53,225 nucleotides of DNA. Origin: Spirochaetia bacterium. Lineage in GTDB: Bacteria > Spirochaetota > UBA4802 > UBA5550. Shown piece by piece: positions 12,424 to 22,197 of this stretch (the stretch's first letter is position 1; every line of letters starts with the position of its first letter). The stretch lies in contig VFJS01000074.1 of the NCBI GenBank assembly GCA_009885955.1, positions 1 through 53,225 of the forward strand. Reading direction: 5' to 3'. The notes under the pieces were generated by a model that saw only the letters and a program-made list of their open reading frames with translations, did not search any database and was not told where the DNA came from. The translations under genes and the position numbers were made by a program.

Positions 12424-12464
12424 AGGATCGGTTGCCTCGTGAAAAAATCCTCCAAGCGACAAAA

Positions 12465-13103
12465 TTAAACAAGAATATCCGAAATAAATAAAAATTTATT
12501 TTCGCGCAGCCCGTGCTTCACATATTGTTTTTTTAAATAATTTATATGATTATTCATATCGATATCATCTTCAATAATATGATAATGAAATGATTTCTGC
12601 CATTTGAACTTCACAAAGCCGTGATTGTTTCCATATTTTATGAAAAATTCCGATCTCAGGTTTTGAATGTTTTCGATATGTTCCATGAACGGTCCACATC
12701 CCCCCACAAGCGACGATTCGAATCGTCGCTTGTGGGGGGACCGTCGCTTTTCGGGGGACTGGCGCAGTTGGGGAGATCGGATGAAATCGTTCCCTGAGAT
12801 CATATCATTACAATCCCTTGCGAAATTACGTTTTATAGTGCCCATGATATCAGAAAAAGTAAATCCCTCAGCCTGTTTCAGCAAAATATGGACATGATCA
12901 GGATTTATTTTATACCCGTACAATAAAAAACGATAAGGAGAATAAATGCTTCTTATTGTCCGGCAGTATTCCATGGTTTCAACGAACAAACGGCATACTA
13001 TATCATCACTGAAATACGGAACACGGTTACAGGTATTTGTTGTTATAAAATATACCGAATTCTTTCGATAATATCTTTTCTGGGAATTCCTGTGAAAGGG
13101 CAT
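12465..13103 (-). CDS. REP-associated tyrosine transposase (RAYT), copy 1
   Basis: This 212-residue Y1 transposase belongs to the IS200-like RAYT branch. It has YFITTNTCNRVPYF near the N-terminus, the HUH-type metal motif HVH (about H70/H72) in GYKINPDHVHILLKQ, and the catalytic Tyr near the C-terminus (about Y189 in HINYLKKQYVKHGL). RAYTs cut and join single-stranded DNA at palindromic repeats. ATG 13103 is used (GGAG upstream); a longer reading frame starts inside the upstream palindrome. Codons 122-135 are a 42-bp palindrome in frame, preceded by three 6-codon half-arm repeats. Copy 2 is at 14941-15567. No terminal repeats of an IS were found. Confidence 0.85.
   Translation of the reverse strand: MPFHRNSQKRYYRKNSVYFITTNTCNRVPYFSDDIVCRLFVETMEYCRTIRSIYSPYRFLLYGYKINPDHVHILLKQAEGFTFSDIMGTIKRNFARDCNDMISGNDFIRSPQLRQSPEKRRSPHKRRFESSLVGGCGPFMEHIENIQNLRSEFFIKYGNNHGFVKFKWQKSFHYHIIEDDIDMNNHINYLKKQYVKHGLRENKFLFISDILV
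12699..12740. repeat. TTCGAA palindrome A (42 nt, perfect), inside RAYT copy 1
   Basis: Two 21-nt arms meet at TTC|GAA (12719/12720). The core is GCGACGATTCGAATCGTCGC; the outer arms are a C-tract/CACAA and its complement. It is fully within the coding sequence and reads as HKRRFESSLVGG-type residues in the minus frame. Partial arm copies follow at 12741-12775. Confidence 0.95.
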
Positions 13104-13161
13104 TGTATTTTCTCCTTTCTCTATATACGATTCACAGGAGAGGATTATGAAAAAAAATCCA

Positions 13162-13205
13162 TCCAAACCAAAGGCGACGATTCGAATCGTAGCCTTTGGT
13201 TTGGA
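13162..13205. repeat. TTCGAA palindrome B (44 nt, one mismatch), upstream of RAYT copy 1
   Basis: Two 22-nt arms centre on 13183/13184 with a single C/A mismatch. Outer arms are CCAAACCAAAG and its complement, unlike those of copy A. It lies 59 bp upstream of the RAYT start codon. Region 13206-13519 beyond it contains no convincing gene. A 17-nt stretch there (13364-13380) recurs at 15952-15968. Confidence 0.9.
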
Positions 13206-13519
13206 ATTCATCACGATAAAGTGTACGCTGATGGATTAGAATTCAGCACCGGAACCTCAGTTAAACCGACTGACAATGATATTCGCCCTTGCCCCGTCGG
13301 ACTGCTGCCAAATGACAATGCCATGCCCAAAGTTATCGAAAATTAATTGTGGAAAATTTGCAGGATAAACATGCTCAGAGCAAAATATTGAGCTTGCAAC
13401 GTTACAGTTGATATAAAAATTACATTTCAGCAATCTTTTTACCATCCGGAATATTTTGTTTGACAATACCAATTATATTTAGTAAATTTACATTAATGAT
13501 AAAAGCCAAGGATTATTAA

Positions 13520-13705
13520 ATGCCAATCAGTGGAAAAGAGATGCTAAGGATTTACAAAAAAGCAGGATGGAAAGTTGAAAGAGTAAAAGGCAGCCATCAT
13601 TGCATGTCAAAGGGCAATGCAGTTGAAACAATTCCTGTATCCTCGAAAGACCTCACTAAAGGACTTGAACGAAAATTATTGAAGAAACTGGAGAAAACAA
13701 TATGA
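13520..13705 (+). CDS. hicA: HicA-type mRNA interferase toxin
   Basis: This 61-residue protein has the double-stranded RNA-binding-like HicA fold. MPISGKEMLRIYKKAGW comes first, followed by the catalytic-His region VKGSHHCMSK and the VPVSSKDLTKGLERKLLKK-like tail. HicA cleaves mRNA and is neutralised by HicB. The gene overlaps hicB by 4 bp (ATGA), typical of the module. It lies between the two RAYT copies. Confidence 0.9.
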   Translation: MPISGKEMLRIYKKAGWKVERVKGSHHCMSKGNAVETIPVSSKDLTKGLERKLLKKLEKTI

Positions 13706-14124
13706 AATATCATTTTAAAATACATAGAGATACCGATGGACTCTGGGCAGAGTGTGTTGAATTAGACGGCTGTCATACTCAGGCTGAAACAGAGAAAGAG
13801 CTTTATAAAAATATGAAAGAAGTCCTTGATCTTTATTTAGATGAACCTGACGAATCCATTAGAATAGCGCCGCTGCCTAAAATAAAATTAAAATCGAAAA
13901 ATATCGCTGAGATCGAGGTTAATCCAAAGATCGCATTTTCTCTATATATGAAGCATTTAAGGAATAAGCACAATTTTACCCAGCAGCAGCTTGCCGACAT
14001 GCTCGGTATGAAGAATATTTATAGTTATCAAAGACTTGAAAAAAAATCCAACCCGAGCCTTGACATGCTTGCAAGGGTTAAAAAAATATATCCCGAATTT
14101 AATTTTAATAAATTATTTGAATAA
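13702..14124 (+). CDS. hicB: HicB-type antitoxin with C-terminal HTH
   Basis: This 140-residue antitoxin has an N-terminal partially degraded RNase H-like HicB domain (residues 1-60: DGLWAECVELDGCHTQAETEKELYKNMKE). A C-terminal Xre-type helix-turn-helix follows (about 85-125: RNKHNFTQQQLADMLGMKN). The HTH would repress the hicAB promoter. It is coupled to hicA by a 4-bp overlap. Confidence 0.9.
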   Translation: MKYHFKIHRDTDGLWAECVELDGCHTQAETEKELYKNMKEVLDLYLDEPDESIRIAPLPKIKLKSKNIAEIEVNPKIAFSLYMKHLRNKHNFTQQQLADMLGMKNIYSYQRLEKKSNPSLDMLARVKKIYPEFNFNKLFE

Positions 14125-14183
14125 AACCAATTACACAATCTTTTTTACACCCTTAAAATTTTTTATAAACTGCTGGATAACTT

Positions 14184-14579
14184 TTAGTTTATTTTGAATA
14201 AATTAAAAGTTATAAATTTCTTCATAAGATAAAAATGTTTATCAATTGTTAATAATGATATATTATTATTAACTATGTTTTGCAGAATAATTAAATCAGG
14301 TATTCCAACATTATTAATGCCATTCTTAATATTGATTACCTGGTAATTGATAATTTCATCCCAATCAATAACAATAGGAATATTTCTGATAGTTAACAGA
14401 ATATCGATTAACTTGAATTCCTTTTTAATTTTTAGATACGGCAGTAATTCCGACAGGATTAAATTATTAATGCATATTTGATTATTATCGATAAGACCGT
14501 CCACAACATCGGAATTGACTGATTTTGAGCCGCGGAAATACTCGACCCATACAGAAGTATCGATTAGTATAAAGTTCAT
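14184..14579 (-). CDS. vapC: VapC-type PIN-domain RNase toxin
   Basis: This 131-residue PIN protein has N-terminal FILIDTSVWVEYFRG with the first acidic residue (D7), a central acidic ILSELLPYL (E43), and C-terminal GIPDLIILQ and LLTIDKHF with further acidic ligands. It would be a Mg2+-dependent endoribonuclease. It is translationally coupled to vapB by a 4-bp overlap. Very AT-rich codon use suggests acquired DNA. Confidence 0.88.
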   Translation of the reverse strand: MNFILIDTSVWVEYFRGSKSVNSDVVDGLIDNNQICINNLILSELLPYLKIKKEFKLIDILLTIRNIPIVIDWDEIINYQVINIKNGINNVGIPDLIILQNIVNNNISLLTIDKHFYLMKKFITFNLFKIN

Positions 14580-14767
14580 CTGTTTCTTAATGTATCAAGA
14601 TCAATATTTATTTTTATTTTCCCATGGAAACTTTTAATATTTTTAACTTTTTCACGCTGAATCAGGCTTATCAAAGCTTCTTTAATAACGCCTGTTTTCG
14701 TTTTAATATTTGCAAGCTTCATAGCTTCTGATACAAGATTTTCCGGTAAATCAATTGTTGTTCTCAT
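14576..14767 (-). CDS. vapB: VapB-type ribbon-helix-helix antitoxin
   Basis: This 63-residue protein has the RHH motif MRTTIDLPENLVSEAMKLA followed by a basic C-terminus that would bind VapC. ATG 14767 has GAGG about 7 nt upstream. A longer frame back to 14830 crosses the operator and is unlikely. The palindromic operator immediately upstream supports autoregulation. Confidence 0.85.
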   Translation of the reverse strand: MRTTIDLPENLVSEAMKLANIKTKTGVIKEALISLIQREKVKNIKSFHGKIKINIDLDTLRNR

Positions 14768-14780
14768 GGCAATACCTCTA

Positions 14781-14810
14781 TATGCATAATATATAAAATT
14801 TATATGCATA
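14781..14810. promoter_or_regulatory. vapBC operator (paired TATGCATA sites)
   Basis: Two identical self-palindromic TATGCATA octamers lie at 14781-14788 and 14803-14810, just upstream of vapB. Their centres are 22 bp apart, two helical turns. A third TATGCAT lies near 14825. This fits RHH antitoxin autorepression. Confidence 0.65.
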
Positions 14811-14940
14811 GTCAAGTATATTTTATGCATTGAAACTAATTAATTCCCTAAAACAGACCAATAGGAATAATCACCCTCACCGTTCTCAAACCTGCGAAAA
14901 CAAGGTCATATTTACAAAAATGAACTATGCGGAAATAATA

Positions 14941-15567
14941 TTAAACAAGGATATCCGAAAAAAATAAAAATTTATTTTCGCGCAACCTGTGCTTCACATA
15001 TTGCCTTTTTAAATAATTTATATGATTATTCATATCGATATCATCTTCAATAATGTGATAATGAAATGATTTCTGCCATTTGAATGGGGCAAAGCCATGA
15101 TTGTTCCCATATTTCATGAAAAATTCCAATCTCAGGTTTTGAATGTTTTCGATATGTTCCATGAACGATCCCCATTCCTCCAAAAGCGACGATTCGAATC
15201 GTCGCTTTTGGAGGAATCGTCGCTTTTCGGGGAATCGTATGAAATCATTCCCTGAGATCAAATCATTATAATCCCGCGCGAAATTACGTTTAATTGATCC
15301 CATGATATTCGAAAAATTATGGAAAAGACGATGATTCGAATCATCGTCTTTTCCTTGTTTGATCAACATGTGAACATGGTCAGGATTTATTTTATACCCA
15401 TATAACATAAATTTTTTTATTATTCGGCAATATTCCATTGTCTCAACGAACAAACGGCATGTTATATCCTCATTGAAATACGGAACGCGGTTACAGGTAT
15501 TGGTTGTTATAAAATATGCTGAATTTTTACGATAATATCTTTTCTGTGAATTCCTGTGAAAGGGCAT
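14941..15567 (-). CDS. REP-associated tyrosine transposase (RAYT), copy 2
   Basis: This 208-residue paralogue of the 12465-13103 protein shares YFITTNTCNRVPYF, HVH (H64/H66) and the C-terminal catalytic Tyr (about Y185). The start has GGAG upstream. It differs by two in-frame changes. A palindrome insertion adds net 8 codons (GKDDDSNHRLFHN, residues 72-84) just after the HVH strand. It also lacks a six-residue stretch before GYKI. A second palindrome lies in frame at residues 117-131, at the same place as in copy 1. All active-site residues remain, so both could be active. Confidence 0.85.
   Translation of the reverse strand: MPFHRNSQKRYYRKNSAYFITTNTCNRVPYFNEDITCRLFVETMEYCRIIKKFMLYGYKINPDHVHMLIKQGKDDDSNHRLFHNFSNIMGSIKRNFARDYNDLISGNDFIRFPEKRRFLQKRRFESSLLEEWGSFMEHIENIQNLRLEFFMKYGNNHGFAPFKWQKSFHYHIIEDDIDMNNHINYLKRQYVKHRLRENKFLFFSDILV
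15174..15217. repeat. TTCGAA palindrome C (44 nt, perfect), inside RAYT copy 2
   Basis: Two perfect 22-nt arms centre on 15195/15196, with core GCGACGATTCGAATCGTCGC and outer arms of the ATTCCTCCAAAA type. It occupies the same place in the gene as palindrome A but the outer arms differ. A partial arm copy follows (15218-15233). Confidence 0.95.
15321..15354. repeat. TTCGAA palindrome D (34 nt, perfect), second insertion in RAYT copy 2
   Basis: Two 17-nt arms centre on 15337/15338. The core is GATGATTCGAATCATC, a variant in which changes on one arm are matched on the other. RAYT copy 1 has no palindrome here, so this is an in-frame insertion. Confidence 0.93.
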
Positions 15568-15699
15568 TTTATTCTCTCCATAAGATATATACGATTCACA
15601 GGGGGAGTTTTGGAAAATTTATATGAGATTATACATAAAAGTGTACCTGAAGAAGTGTGATGCCTATCTGAAAAACCAAAAACCACAACCCTCACCCTG

Positions 15700-15765
15700 A
15701 AAAGCGACATCTCACAACCCAAAAAAGTGACGTCTCACAACCCCGAAAGGCGACATCTCATCCCC
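15700..15765. repeat. three tandem degenerate palindrome arms
   Basis: Three consecutive 21-23-nt units, of the form AAAGYGACRTCTCACAACCC, lie at 15700-15720, 15721-15743 and 15744-15765. They lead directly into palindrome E. Each looks like one arm whose second half was never copied. The surrounding region 15568-16043 has no supported gene. Confidence 0.7.
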
Positions 15766-15798
15766 AAAAGCGACGATTCGAATCGTCGCTTTTGGGGA
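15761..15798. repeat. TTCGAA palindrome E (38 nt, perfect)
   Basis: Two 19-nt arms centre on 15779/15780, with core GCGACGATTCGAATCGTCGC and TCCCCAAAA outer arms. It is intergenic, downstream of the tandem arm array. Confidence 0.95.
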
Positions 15799-16043
15799 AG
15801 GGGAGGCGTGAAGGTTGCTTATGCGGAACCATCTACACCCACTGTTCTCACGGAACCCCCATTCCACTTCGGCAGACTCAGAGCAGGCAATCCCTCCCCT
15901 TCTTCGGCTCCGTTCAGGGAGCGGGAGATGGGGGAGCAAATAAGTAGTTTTGATAAACATGCTCAGAGTAAAACATCCATTTTATCAGCAAAATCTTTGA
16001 TGAGAAATATCTTTGCCTCATATCCTAAAAATCTCAATATTCA

Positions 16044-19000
16044 TTAAGGCGACTGTGTATTGACGGTAGCATTTGTATTGGTAACCGTAACAGTTGTTGT
16101 CGTTGTGGTCATAGTTGTGATATTTGTTACAGTGGCCGAAGTAGTAGTTATTGTAGCGCTTGTGTCAGTAACAGTAGCGTTTGTTGTTGTACCAAAGGGT
16201 GGGCATGAACCGTCAGATTTTGTTTTTATTATCCAGTTGTCCCAACCCCCTGCACCAAATCCCTGTGTCTGCCCATTTACTATGATGCCTCCATCATTTG
16301 TAATAGTCATTGAAGGTAATTGGGAAACACTTTCTAATGATGAACTGTCATATCTTTTTTGCCAAATAATTGAACCATCGTAATCTATTTTAATAAACCA
16401 TAAATCAGCATTTGCACTAAATGATCCTGTAGTACCAAAAAGAATTAACCCGCTATTATCCTTTACCATACCACCTGGATAGTCAGCATTCGCACCGCCA
16501 TATGCTTTTTGCCATAAAACAGTGCCATTTGTATCAAATTTTGTGACCCAATAATCCTGATTTCCTGTTCCAGGATTGTTACTACTACTTAATGCCAAAT
16601 ATTTGCCGTCCGGACTTTCCTCAATTGACTGACCAGTATCAGCTGAACTTGAGAAACCAAGGGCTTTTTCCCAGAGAACATTGCCATTGCTGTCCAATTT
16701 TAAAACCCACTGTTCCCATTCAGGCCCGGAACCGCCGGCATTATAATACCCGGTTACAATTAAATTATTATCACTTGTTTCTTTAATATCACGGATACTT
16801 TCACTTCCTGAATTTATACCATAAGCTTTTGCCCAGAGAATATTACCATCATTGTCAATTTTTATAATCAACCCATCATTACCATAATATCCACCGCCAA
16901 CGCCAAATGAGGCGGTAAGTCCTCCAAGTATATATCCATCATCAGATGTCTTTATTATTTTATACACGCCATCATGATTAGCGCCCCCATATGCCTTTTG
17001 CCATATGATATTACCGCTTGAATCTAATTTAATCAGGAGAATATCCGTTAAACCTGCTCCGTAGTAGTTTGTGCTGCCAGCAATTAGACTTCCATTATTT
17101 GAGGTTGAAACAATTGATGTAAAATATTCTTGACCTGTCCCTCCAAATGCTTTCTCCCATAAAATATTGCCGTTAAGATCTGTTTTAATCAACCAGCCAT
17201 CTTCATCACCAGCGCCGAACGAATACGTTCCTCCGCCTATAAGATATGAAGAATCTGCGTTTTGCATAATAAACTCACCTGCATCGGCAAGACTCCCCCC
17301 ATAGGTCTTTGCCCATGAAATAGTATTCGGCTCATTATAGAGCGCTTGGATTTCTGAAGCTGAAAGGGCTCGGTTGTAGATGCGGACGTCATCGATTTTG
17401 CCATAAAAAGATTTATCAGTACCTGGAGTTAAATCTCTATTACGCTCACCAATATCATATAGAGTTGCATTAAATGTCCTGGAAACACTACTAAGTAGTT
17501 CCCATTGAAAAGTATTGTTTATATACAATTTTGCTTTTCGAGTTGATTCATCATATACTAAAATAACATGATGCCACACTCCATCATTTACACTCATAGT
17601 ACTTTCTTCCCATGCATTTGGAAAATCCCAATGACCAGGACCAACCACTTTGCCATTTTGAACAGCAAGGTAATAATAGCTTCTAAAATCTGAAAAGTAT
17701 CTGAAATTTGAATTAGCTATTTCAGATGTATTTATCCATACTGAAATAGTAAATGAAGATATTGAAATTGATGTCCAATCTGATTGAATGTAATCATCCA
17801 GTCCATCAAAATTATAAGCACTACTAGTATTTCCGAACCTGTCTGTTGTCAATGCCGGATCGCTGGCATCCGTTCCGCTGGCCGTTCCTAATTGTCCATG
17901 ATTCCCACTCCCGCTTGAGTCACTGGCATCACCATTGAATAGATATTCTGCCACCAGACCATTCCTTGGAATTCCAGAATTTTGTAAAACAGTCAGGATA
18001 AACATCTTCGTATCATTGGCCAGTCCTTTACTAATAGTTGCGGTTAAAGTGGATGAGGCATTACCAGAACCGGACACAGGCCTTGTCACAACGCCGCTGT
18101 TGGAAATTACGGCTGTATTACTTGAAACCCACGATATCGTTGTCCCGCTTGACCCAGCTATTGCAAGTGTTACATTCTGTGTTACGCTCCCGGCGCTGTC
18201 GCTCCCGCCGTAGATAATAACCAGAGCTGTCTTATCCGCTGCCACTGCTCCTGCATCGGTCTGCGGCGACTCTAACACTGTCAGAACAAACTGCTTCGTA
18301 TCATTGGCAAGCCCCTTTGTTATGGTTGCCGTTATCGTCGACGACGCATTTCCGGAACCATAGGCCGGGCGAGTTACTATACCGGCGTTGCTGATAACTC
18401 CCGTGTTGCTTGAGCTCCAGCTTATGGTTGTCCCGCTTGAACCCACGGTTTGCAGGGTTACATTCTGTGTCACGTTCCCTGCGCTGTCGCTTCCTCCGTA
18501 GATGATCACCAGGGCGGCCTTGTCCGCTGCAACTGATCCCGCATCGCTCTGTGGGTTCTCGATAACCGTGAGGATAAATTGCTTCGTGTCATTTGAAAGC
18601 CCCTTGGATATTGTCGCGGTCATGGTAATGGATGCGTTACCGGAGCCGTAGGCCGGTCGTGTCACCGCACCATTTGCCGCGATTATTCCCGTATTGGATG
18701 ATCCCCATGCAATGGTGGTCCCGCTTGAACCGGCAGTCGGCAGGGTTACATTCTGTGTTACGCTCGCGGAACTGTCGCCGCTTCCATAGGTAATGACCAG
18801 GGCCGATTTGTCCGCAGCAACTGATCCGGCATCGGTCGATGGGGCTTGTATAATGGTAATGATGAATATTTTCGTATCAAAGGTGCTCCCCTTTGATATG
18901 GTAGCGGTCAGGGTAACCGTTGTGTTACCGGTGCCATAAGCCGGCCGTGTAACCGTACCGTTTATCGCGATTATCGTTGAATTCGATGAAAGCCATGTTA

Positions 19001-19250
19001 TTGTAGTACCATTGGGGCCGGTGGTTGCCAGAGTTATATTCTGTGTTATACTCCCGGAACTGTCTGTCCCGCCATAGGCAATGTCCAGAGACCCTTTGTC
19101 CGTCTGTACAGACTCAGATTCGACAGTTTTATAGTACGCTATCCCGTCAGGGTCATACTGGTTGTTATACGTAATCTCCTTCACCCCGCTGTCGCATGAA
19201 ACGACTGAGAGTATCATGGAGCATATTGTCATCAGTAAATTTTTTTTCAT
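16044..19250 (-). CDS. large lipoprotein: Ig-like repeats, LamG domain, delta-60-like propeller
   Basis: This 1068-residue surface lipoprotein has a signal peptide ending SVVSC. Four Ig-like repeats of about 93 residues (about 50-420) follow, each with SVTQNVTL, GTTISW-SSN, VTRPAYGSGNAS and L(T)ATISKG. A LamG/concanavalin-like domain spans about 425-640 (YNFDGLDDYIQ, WHHVILVYDE, GKIDDVRIYNRALSASEI). Seven or so WLIKTDLNGNILWEKAFGG-type repeats form a propeller (about 645-1010). A Thr/Val/Asn-rich low-complexity tail ends the protein. It probably binds glycans or surfaces. A GGAGAGAGG ribosome binding site precedes the ATG. Confidence 0.8.
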   Translation of the reverse strand: MKKNLLMTICSMILSVVSCDSGVKEITYNNQYDPDGIAYYKTVESESVQTDKGSLDIAYGGTDSSGSITQNITLATTGPNGTTITWLSSNSTIIAINGTVTRPAYGTGNTTVTLTATISKGSTFDTKIFIITIIQAPSTDAGSVAADKSALVITYGSGDSSASVTQNVTLPTAGSSGTTIAWGSSNTGIIAANGAVTRPAYGSGNASITMTATISKGLSNDTKQFILTVIENPQSDAGSVAADKAALVIIYGGSDSAGNVTQNVTLQTVGSSGTTISWSSSNTGVISNAGIVTRPAYGSGNASSTITATITKGLANDTKQFVLTVLESPQTDAGAVAADKTALVIIYGGSDSAGSVTQNVTLAIAGSSGTTISWVSSNTAVISNSGVVTRPVSGSGNASSTLTATISKGLANDTKMFILTVLQNSGIPRNGLVAEYLFNGDASDSSGSGNHGQLGTASGTDASDPALTTDRFGNTSSAYNFDGLDDYIQSDWTSISISSFTISVWINTSEIANSNFRYFSDFRSYYYLAVQNGKVVGPGHWDFPNAWEESTMSVNDGVWHHVILVYDESTRKAKLYINNTFQWELLSSVSRTFNATLYDIGERNRDLTPGTDKSFYGKIDDVRIYNRALSASEIQALYNEPNTISWAKTYGGSLADAGEFIMQNADSSYLIGGGTYSFGAGDEDGWLIKTDLNGNILWEKAFGGTGQEYFTSIVSTSNNGSLIAGSTNYYGAGLTDILLIKLDSSGNIIWQKAYGGANHDGVYKIIKTSDDGYILGGLTASFGVGGGYYGNDGLIIKIDNDGNILWAKAYGINSGSESIRDIKETSDNNLIVTGYYNAGGSGPEWEQWVLKLDSNGNVLWEKALGFSSSADTGQSIEESPDGKYLALSSSNNPGTGNQDYWVTKFDTNGTVLWQKAYGGANADYPGGMVKDNSGLILFGTTGSFSANADLWFIKIDYDGSIIWQKRYDSSSLESVSQLPSMTITNDGGIIVNGQTQGFGAGGWDNWIIKTKSDGSCPPFGTTTNATVTDTSATITTTSATVTNITTMTTTTTTVTVTNTNATVNTQSP

Positions 19251-19327: not shown

Positions 19328-19367
19328 CCCCTGAAAAGCGACGATTCGAATCGTCGCTTTTCAGGGG
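19328..19367. repeat. TTCGAA palindrome F (40 nt, perfect)
   Basis: Two 20-nt arms centre on 19347/19348, with core GCGACGATTCGAATCGTCGC and outer arms CCCCTGAAAA. It is intergenic between the CsgG-like gene and the large lipoprotein gene. Arm-like fragments flank it at 19312-19327 and 19370-19385. Confidence 0.95.
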
Positions 19368-22155: not shown

Positions 22156-22197
22156 GGTGAATAAAAGCTACGATTCGAATCGTAGCTTTTATTCACC
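22156..22197. repeat. TTCGAA palindrome G (42 nt, perfect)
   Basis: Two 21-nt arms centre on 22176/22177. The core is the compensated variant GCTACGATTCGAATCGTAGC, with outer arms GGTGAATAAAA. It lies in the divergent gap between the sigma gene and the DUF1015 gene. The rest of 22011-22431 shows no gene. Confidence 0.95.

Follow-up and report, generated by a model that had tools for sequence, protein, structure and literature searches.

The contig examined here (VFJS01000074.1 of assembly GCA_009885955.1, from a Spirochaetia bacterium; its entire 53,225 nucleotides are referred to below as ‘the window’) encodes two closely related enzymes of the type known as RAYT (REP-associated tyrosine transposase, where REP denotes a repetitive extragenic palindrome), and each of the two genes contains, in frame, a long perfect palindrome of the same family as the palindromes that are scattered around it. 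The same arrangement recurs in most of the sampled relatives of the two proteins, where the palindrome differs in sequence from locus to locus, remains symmetric and matches the palindromes that flank its own gene. These loci probably represent a RAYT/REP-like system in which one palindrome copy is resident within the enzyme gene, and in which the arms of the palindromes are mirrored by hairpin-templated repair.

Palindromes within and around two RAYT genes

The main in-gene palindromes of RAYT1 and RAYT2 are perfect, have no spacer between their arms and occupy equivalent positions in open reading frames (ORFs) that are 83% identical in protein and open throughout. In these respects, as in the assignment of both to the family of palindromes that flank the genes, a preliminary description of the window made from its sequence alone proved accurate. 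That description overlooked a second palindrome within RAYT2, for which RAYT1 has no counterpart; the net difference between the two genes at that point is +24 nt, and the reading frame of RAYT2 is therefore kept. The features are as follows (strand is given for the genes; the remaining features carry none).

12465-13103, minus strand: RAYT1, a RAYT-like Y1 HUH enzyme of 212 residues from MPFHRNSQ; HVH at about 12888-12896; putative catalytic tyrosine, assigned by alignment, at about 12537-12539
14941-15567, minus strand: RAYT2, 208 residues; His64/His66 at 15370-15378; Tyr185 (putative catalytic) at 15013-15015
12699-12740: palindrome in RAYT1, perfect, 21-bp arms; encodes SPHKRRFESSLVGG, in the linker between the conserved helix and the WQ strand
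15174-15217: palindrome in RAYT2, perfect, 22-bp arms; same site as in RAYT1
15321-15354: second palindrome in RAYT2, perfect, 17-bp arms; encodes GKDDDSNHRLFH, in the loop right after the HUH strand
13162-13205: palindrome upstream of RAYT1, one mismatch
15761-15798: palindrome upstream of RAYT2, perfect, 19-bp arms
19328-19367: intergenic palindrome, perfect, 20-bp arms
22156-22197: intergenic palindrome, perfect, 21-bp arms
15694-15769: three direct, 23-nt-spaced, half-palindrome-like copies (CCCCGAAAAGCGACATCTCACAA) that run into the 15761 palindrome; direct-repeat family D9
12461-13388: possible extent of RAYT unit 1, placed between direct repeats (D2, D3, D8 and D16) that it has in common with unit 2 (14937-15976)

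All seven palindromes of the family fall within a 9.5-kb span, from 12.7 to 22.2 kb. When the 20-nt core, with as many as 3 mismatches allowed, was searched for across the entire 4.77-Mb genome, six of them were recovered, every one in the window, and the core was found nowhere else; the core of the second RAYT2 copy (GACGATGATTCGAATCATCGTC) is too divergent for such a search. It is the long palindromes that exceed chance greatly, the TTCGAA hexamer alone showing no enrichment (18 observed vs 22 expected). Single-strand folds of four window palindromes, computed as DNA, gave z-scores of -7.4 to -8.7. The mechanically derived ORF of RAYT1 reaches 13214 and is open through the palindrome at 13162-13205, which leaves a possible N-terminal extension; the start at MPFHRNSQ is that of RAYT2 and of the homologous stretch.

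Identity and predicted fold of the enzymes

Both proteins match the Pfam family Y1_Tnp (3e-7 for the extended ORF of RAYT1, 7e-5 for RAYT2), and the NCBIfam model NF047646 (REP_Tyr_transpos) scores them at 74.2 and 71.7 bits respectively (E 1e-20 and 6e-20), where the curated cutoff is 80. In an AlphaFold model of RAYT2 built with 48 aligned sequences, the mean predicted local distance difference test (pLDDT) value is 89.9, and the nearest solved structure to that model is 4er8, a complex of TnpAREP with a REP hairpin (Z 14.0, 2.1 Å, 134 residues), followed by IS608 (Z 11.6). The identification of the window proteins as RAYT-like Y1 HUH enzymes, proposed in the preliminary description, is supported by the Pfam match and by this predicted fold; alignment likewise upholds its statement that the reading frame is kept and that the HVH motif and catalytic tyrosine are retained (His64, His66 and the putative Tyr185 of RAYT2).

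The main palindrome of RAYT2 maps to about residues 117-132, between the predicted helices 85-105 and 125-153. Block means of pLDDT fall to 57 for residues 111-120 and 65 for residues 121-130, the lowest part of an otherwise confident fold. The 4.77-Mb genome encodes just these two close RAYTs, further Y1-type matches being more distant.

In-gene palindromes across the clade

Homologues were found in Spirochaetota and, by means of an alignment query, also in Patescibacteria, Cloacimonadota, Margulisbacteria and other phyla; the single-protein query of genome contigs with RAYT2 had returned no relative, and tblastn against plasmids gave no match. An in-gene palindrome (score of at least 9, no more than 2 mismatches) is present in 44 of 57 sampled proteins, a sample gathered with a clade-derived sequence query and not a random survey, and it always lies between HUH and WQ. 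One of the 44, L213, falls on a long branch with L214 outside the clade and has a different foot, so that 43 is the fairer count. The 13 proteins that have no palindrome include some that look intact (L155, L159, L161, L178 and L150). Such homologues do not carry the encoded peptide; its presence in them had been named in the preliminary description as a finding that would refute its proposal.

The conserved outer part of the in-gene palindromes reads AAGGCG...CGCCTT, while the inner positions vary and constitute what is termed here the ‘code’: among the 43 genes there are 37 distinct 9-nt half-codes, and 461 of 472 cells are paired. All three reading frames are used, yielding unrelated peptides, in a ratio of 35:4:4 (15:3:1 where all three frames are open; p = 6e-5 on the assumption of independence), and the favoured frame yields a recurrent peptide of the type EG[DAE]xxxxRL. 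The common place and frame suggest that the in-gene copy was inherited in most of the clade; the use of other frames, together with the second copy in RAYT2, suggests repeated placement as well. A rule that a palindrome lies within the gene only if its core is stop-free in every frame was dropped, as the cores of L165 and L180 contain stops but are read in a different frame, and the core of L150 is stop-free yet lies outside the gene. The longest perfect in-gene arms, those of L202 and L158, measure 26 bp each and extend far past the common core.

Palindromes are also carried in frame by a gene for a coenzyme A (CoA)-enzyme activase (BcrAD_BadFG and DUF2229), in which a 1066-residue stretch in one relative (G040, locus L077) holds two of them; tolerance of them is therefore not confined to the RAYT gene. 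Orthologues of the activase in G023 (L109) and G032 (L110) have palindromes at the same two places, with different arms and in different states of decay.

Symmetry and locus-specific arms

Pairing is intact in 97.7% of cells across 40 in-gene palindromes, and 129 cells have changed on both arms as compared with 35.7 after shuffling; the covariation score is 0.672, against 0.154 for shuffled and 0.04-0.09 for slid controls. Only 3 of the 520 cells are G-U, and mismatches up to 11 nt from the centre show no bias toward that pair (G-T or T-G in 3 of 11). Pairing that is of the Watson-Crick type, with G-U so rare, therefore indicates a DNA palindrome rather than an RNA hairpin, suggesting that the constraint acts at the level of DNA.

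Among 81 sequence-distinct dispersed palindromes (pattern matches from 13 fetched genomes, not a random sample), a 14-nt half-core is conserved; over positions 15-25, pairing declines from 74% to 37%, with chance at about 26%, and conservation across loci is about 0 bits. The main palindromes of RAYT1 and RAYT2 differ at three arm positions, each of which (3/3) is compensated on the other arm, and arms likewise change symmetrically at orthologous sites in sister genomes. One such site exists in four symmetric versions in four species, that of G032 having one mismatch and an altered centre; a comparison of L048 with G036 was uninformative. At a further, near-empty site (L074 vs G032), G032 has a single copy of the left arm beside the ATG of the next gene, and in three relatives the arm, the core and the inverted arm are all present, a pattern that fits the mirroring of flanking DNA. 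At L075, L091 and L099, orthologous palindromes are found between convergent genes and are flanked by A-tracts and T-tracts in the manner of bidirectional terminators.

Correspondence between enzyme locus and palindrome code

The half-code of an in-gene palindrome differs from that of its nearest own flanking palindrome by a mean of 0.375 of 9 positions, and by 3.24 when loci are shuffled (p = 2e-4, n = 16 loci). The preliminary description had supposed that the evolution of enzyme and target is tied, and the match of in-gene and flanking codes across these 16 relatives bears this out: enzyme locus and repeat therefore change together. Protein distance and code distance are weakly correlated (Mantel r 0.19, p 0.002), and the codes turn over fast.

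At the level of genomes, a TTCGAA-type palindrome and a RAYT of the window type co-occur among the 98 that were compared (counts of 7/6/4/81, p = 3e-5). The preliminary description had held that equal numbers of palindromes in genomes lacking RAYTs would speak against its proposal; the outcome was mixed, as the co-occurrence sustains the association but there are exceptions, among them G027 (discussed below). In G023, a RAYT fragment with stop codons adjoins a palindrome (L067 1042-1206; G023:C37:3613-3777) and is possibly a decayed relic.

Proposed mechanism and its alternatives

The explanation regarded as probable combines a single-strand-specific Y1 HUH enzyme with short non-autonomous palindromes, which it would most likely recognize as hairpins on single-stranded DNA and would cleave; the palindromes would move as single strands. 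Each enzyme lineage would have its own palindrome core, or code, and one in-frame copy would sit in a disordered linker of the enzyme without disturbing the fold, presumably as a neutral passenger. In most of the clade this copy appears to be resident by inheritance, given a common place and, in most cases, a common frame; the use of other frames and the position of the second RAYT2 copy in another loop would point to several new placements as well. Hairpin-templated copying from arm to arm (template switching or palindrome correction) would maintain perfect arms and probably lengthen them into flanking DNA, and through it the code could drift and yet stay symmetric.

A number of points weigh against this explanation. 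It is built on sequence and predicted structure; the in-gene counts come from the directed sample of 57 proteins; shared ancestry makes the frame and code counts non-independent, with many forks of the tree unsupported; and overlapping fetches and orthologous sites may have left a few near-duplicates among the 81 dispersed places. A genome of a related genus (G042) has a decayed palindrome at the near-empty site of G032, so that loss in G032 is possible and the site is ambiguous. G027, a genome 95% complete, has 20 palindromes but yielded no RAYT at E <= 1e-8, so that palindromes do persist where an enzyme is not detectable; either symmetry can be kept there without one or the enzyme was lost or missed. 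Finally, some of the palindromes between convergent genes may owe their persistence to a role as terminators.

The data are compatible with an in-gene copy that is needed as well as with one that is simply tolerated. If it were functional and selected, it might serve as a self-target through which the enzyme acts on or represses its own locus (negative feedback), or might keep specificity and code linked. Its wide presence in the clade at one place, the agreement of its code with that of flanking copies, and a symmetry that is DNA-like, with few G-U pairs, would all accord with such a role, as would the same arrangement, in another loop, in the TnpAREP enzymes of subclass 2.4 (PMC6006769; L214), which suggests more than one origin. 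However, the proteins that lack a palindrome, intact-looking ones among them, do not fit a required self-target; REPs also lie in frame in unrelated genes (the activase described above; PMC3733652), and the linker may be merely permissive and near the enzyme's site of action. A selected self-target is accordingly considered unlikely, if well short of implausible. Slightly less probable again is its fullest form, in which a widespread RAYT lineage, undescribed in the literature searched, would keep an in-gene target copy as a selected self-target, with gene DNA, enzyme and repeats shifting their code jointly through symmetric hairpin-templated copying.

Locus-specific arms might have arisen where cores inserted into pre-existing hairpins such as terminators, instead of from mirrored flanking DNA, a route for which the A- and T-tracts between convergent genes and the known insertion of REPs within palindromes (Di Nocera et al. 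2013, PMC3733652) offer some grounds; yet arms often have no T-tracts and extend into coding sequence or gene starts, those of orthologues differ and still remain symmetric, and RAYT1 bears no trace of the arms of the second RAYT2 palindrome, so that this origin seems quite improbable. An RNA hairpin in RAYT mRNA that slows translation or stabilizes the transcript is very improbable: the transcript would also fold into a long hairpin (the folds were computed as DNA), but 129 double changes stand against three G-U cells, mismatches near the centre lack a G-U bias, copies elsewhere are mostly intergenic or close to gene ends, and Rfam gave no match. There is a still smaller chance that the encoded peptide itself reads the code, so that a symmetric change in the DNA would alter target and reader together. 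The frame preference and recurrent peptide would suit such a reader, and short insertions between aC and b4 are described near the REP-recognition region (Quentin et al., PMC6006769); however, three frames give unrelated peptides, the second copy in RAYT2 occupies another loop, and the stretch is predicted to be disordered.

Neighbouring genes

Between the two RAYT copies (13520-14830) lie a toxin-antitoxin module consisting of HicA (13520-13705) and a helix-turn-helix partner (13702-14124), and a second such module consisting of VapB (14576-14830) and the PIN-domain VapC (14184-14579). A large protein encoded at 16044-19250 combines four aBig_2 stretches with a Laminin_G_3 domain, and its coding DNA includes three tandem 288-nt repeats.

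Significance

The field has yet to explain how RAYTs and REPs remain matched as both of them change. The relatives collected here provide some 40 natural enzyme/palindrome pairs, most with a short code of their own and one copy in the enzyme gene, so that swaps of specificity are directly testable; their mirrored, locus-specific arms constitute a visible trace of palindrome growth or repair. That in-gene palindromes recur in two loops and in two enzyme groups raises the question of whether they are tolerated or needed. Were the in-gene copy indeed a selected self-target, the locus would be a self-referential mobile element, a design that subclass 2.4 would have reached separately.

Comparison with known systems

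The symmetry of the arms has a precedent in the correction of quasipalindromes by replication template switching, an established process in which one arm is copied from the other and identical arms result (PMC7202029, PMC8604942). Template switching would be the likeliest cause of the symmetry described above. We know of no description of such correction in an enzyme-tied family of repeats with a common core.

The gammaproteobacterial REP/RAYT system, or REPtron (Nunvar et al. 2010, PMC2817692), resembles that of the window in its gene-flanking palindromes, the co-divergence of enzyme and repeat, and complementary changes in the stems. REPs of that system have a GTAG/GTGG head and number tens to hundreds of copies, whereas the window palindromes have neither spacer nor such a head, comprise seven copies within 9.5 kb and, in relatives, have locus-specific arms. 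Short in-frame palindromes in protein genes are also known from the Rickettsia palindromic elements and CGTC REPs (PMC3733652), the latter occurring in Spirochaetes among other phyla, and REPs have been found inside many other genes (Di Nocera et al. 2013, PMC3733652). CGTC REPs bear a CGTC tag at one end and have no dedicated transposase; the window family has locus-specific ends and is associated with a RAYT-like gene.

The closest parallel is TnpAREP subclass 2.4 (RAYT group 4), which likewise combines a RAYT-type enzyme and its WQ motif with flanking REPs and an in-frame REP between HuH and the tyrosine; in-frame REPs at that position are a unique and predominant trait of subclass 2.4 tnpAREP genes (Quentin et al. 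2018, PMC6006769), which contradicts the statement in the preliminary description that the palindromes of known REP/RAYT systems lie outside the gene. The HuH motif of the subclass is NH[IFV]H, and that of both window proteins is DHVH; the class 2 and subclass 2.4 signature Y---NP is replaced in the window proteins by Y---Q (Y-L-K-[KR]-Q), although it is present in several relatives from other phyla (e.g. YIEYNP, YIQYNP). REPs of the subclass have a GT[AG]G foot (canonical or double), whereas the palindrome cores of the window clade have no such foot and share the conserved AAGGCG..CGCCTT.

The distant relative L214 looks like a member of subclass 2.4 by its sequence motifs (NHVH, WQ and YYIQQNP), and its in-gene GTAG...CTAC palindrome encodes VGNGFKPFPT ahead of the helix LSEIVRGFKTFSSRKIN. 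By a helix equivalence drawn from sequence, the main copy of the window clade follows the matching conserved helix, whereas the L214 copy precedes it; relative to the variable b3-aC insertion of the subclass, the second palindrome of RAYT2 would also lie before that helix. The window proteins thus lack several features of subclass 2.4, and their clade would be distinct from it, as judged against the published description of the subclass. No description of the clade (Spirochaetota, Patescibacteria, Cloacimonadota and others) was present in the literature searched. The pattern of a palindrome within the enzyme gene is well supported and partly known; what is new here is that it occurs in an apparently different enzyme group and at another place in the gene, and that its symmetry is both locus-specific and unusually perfect.

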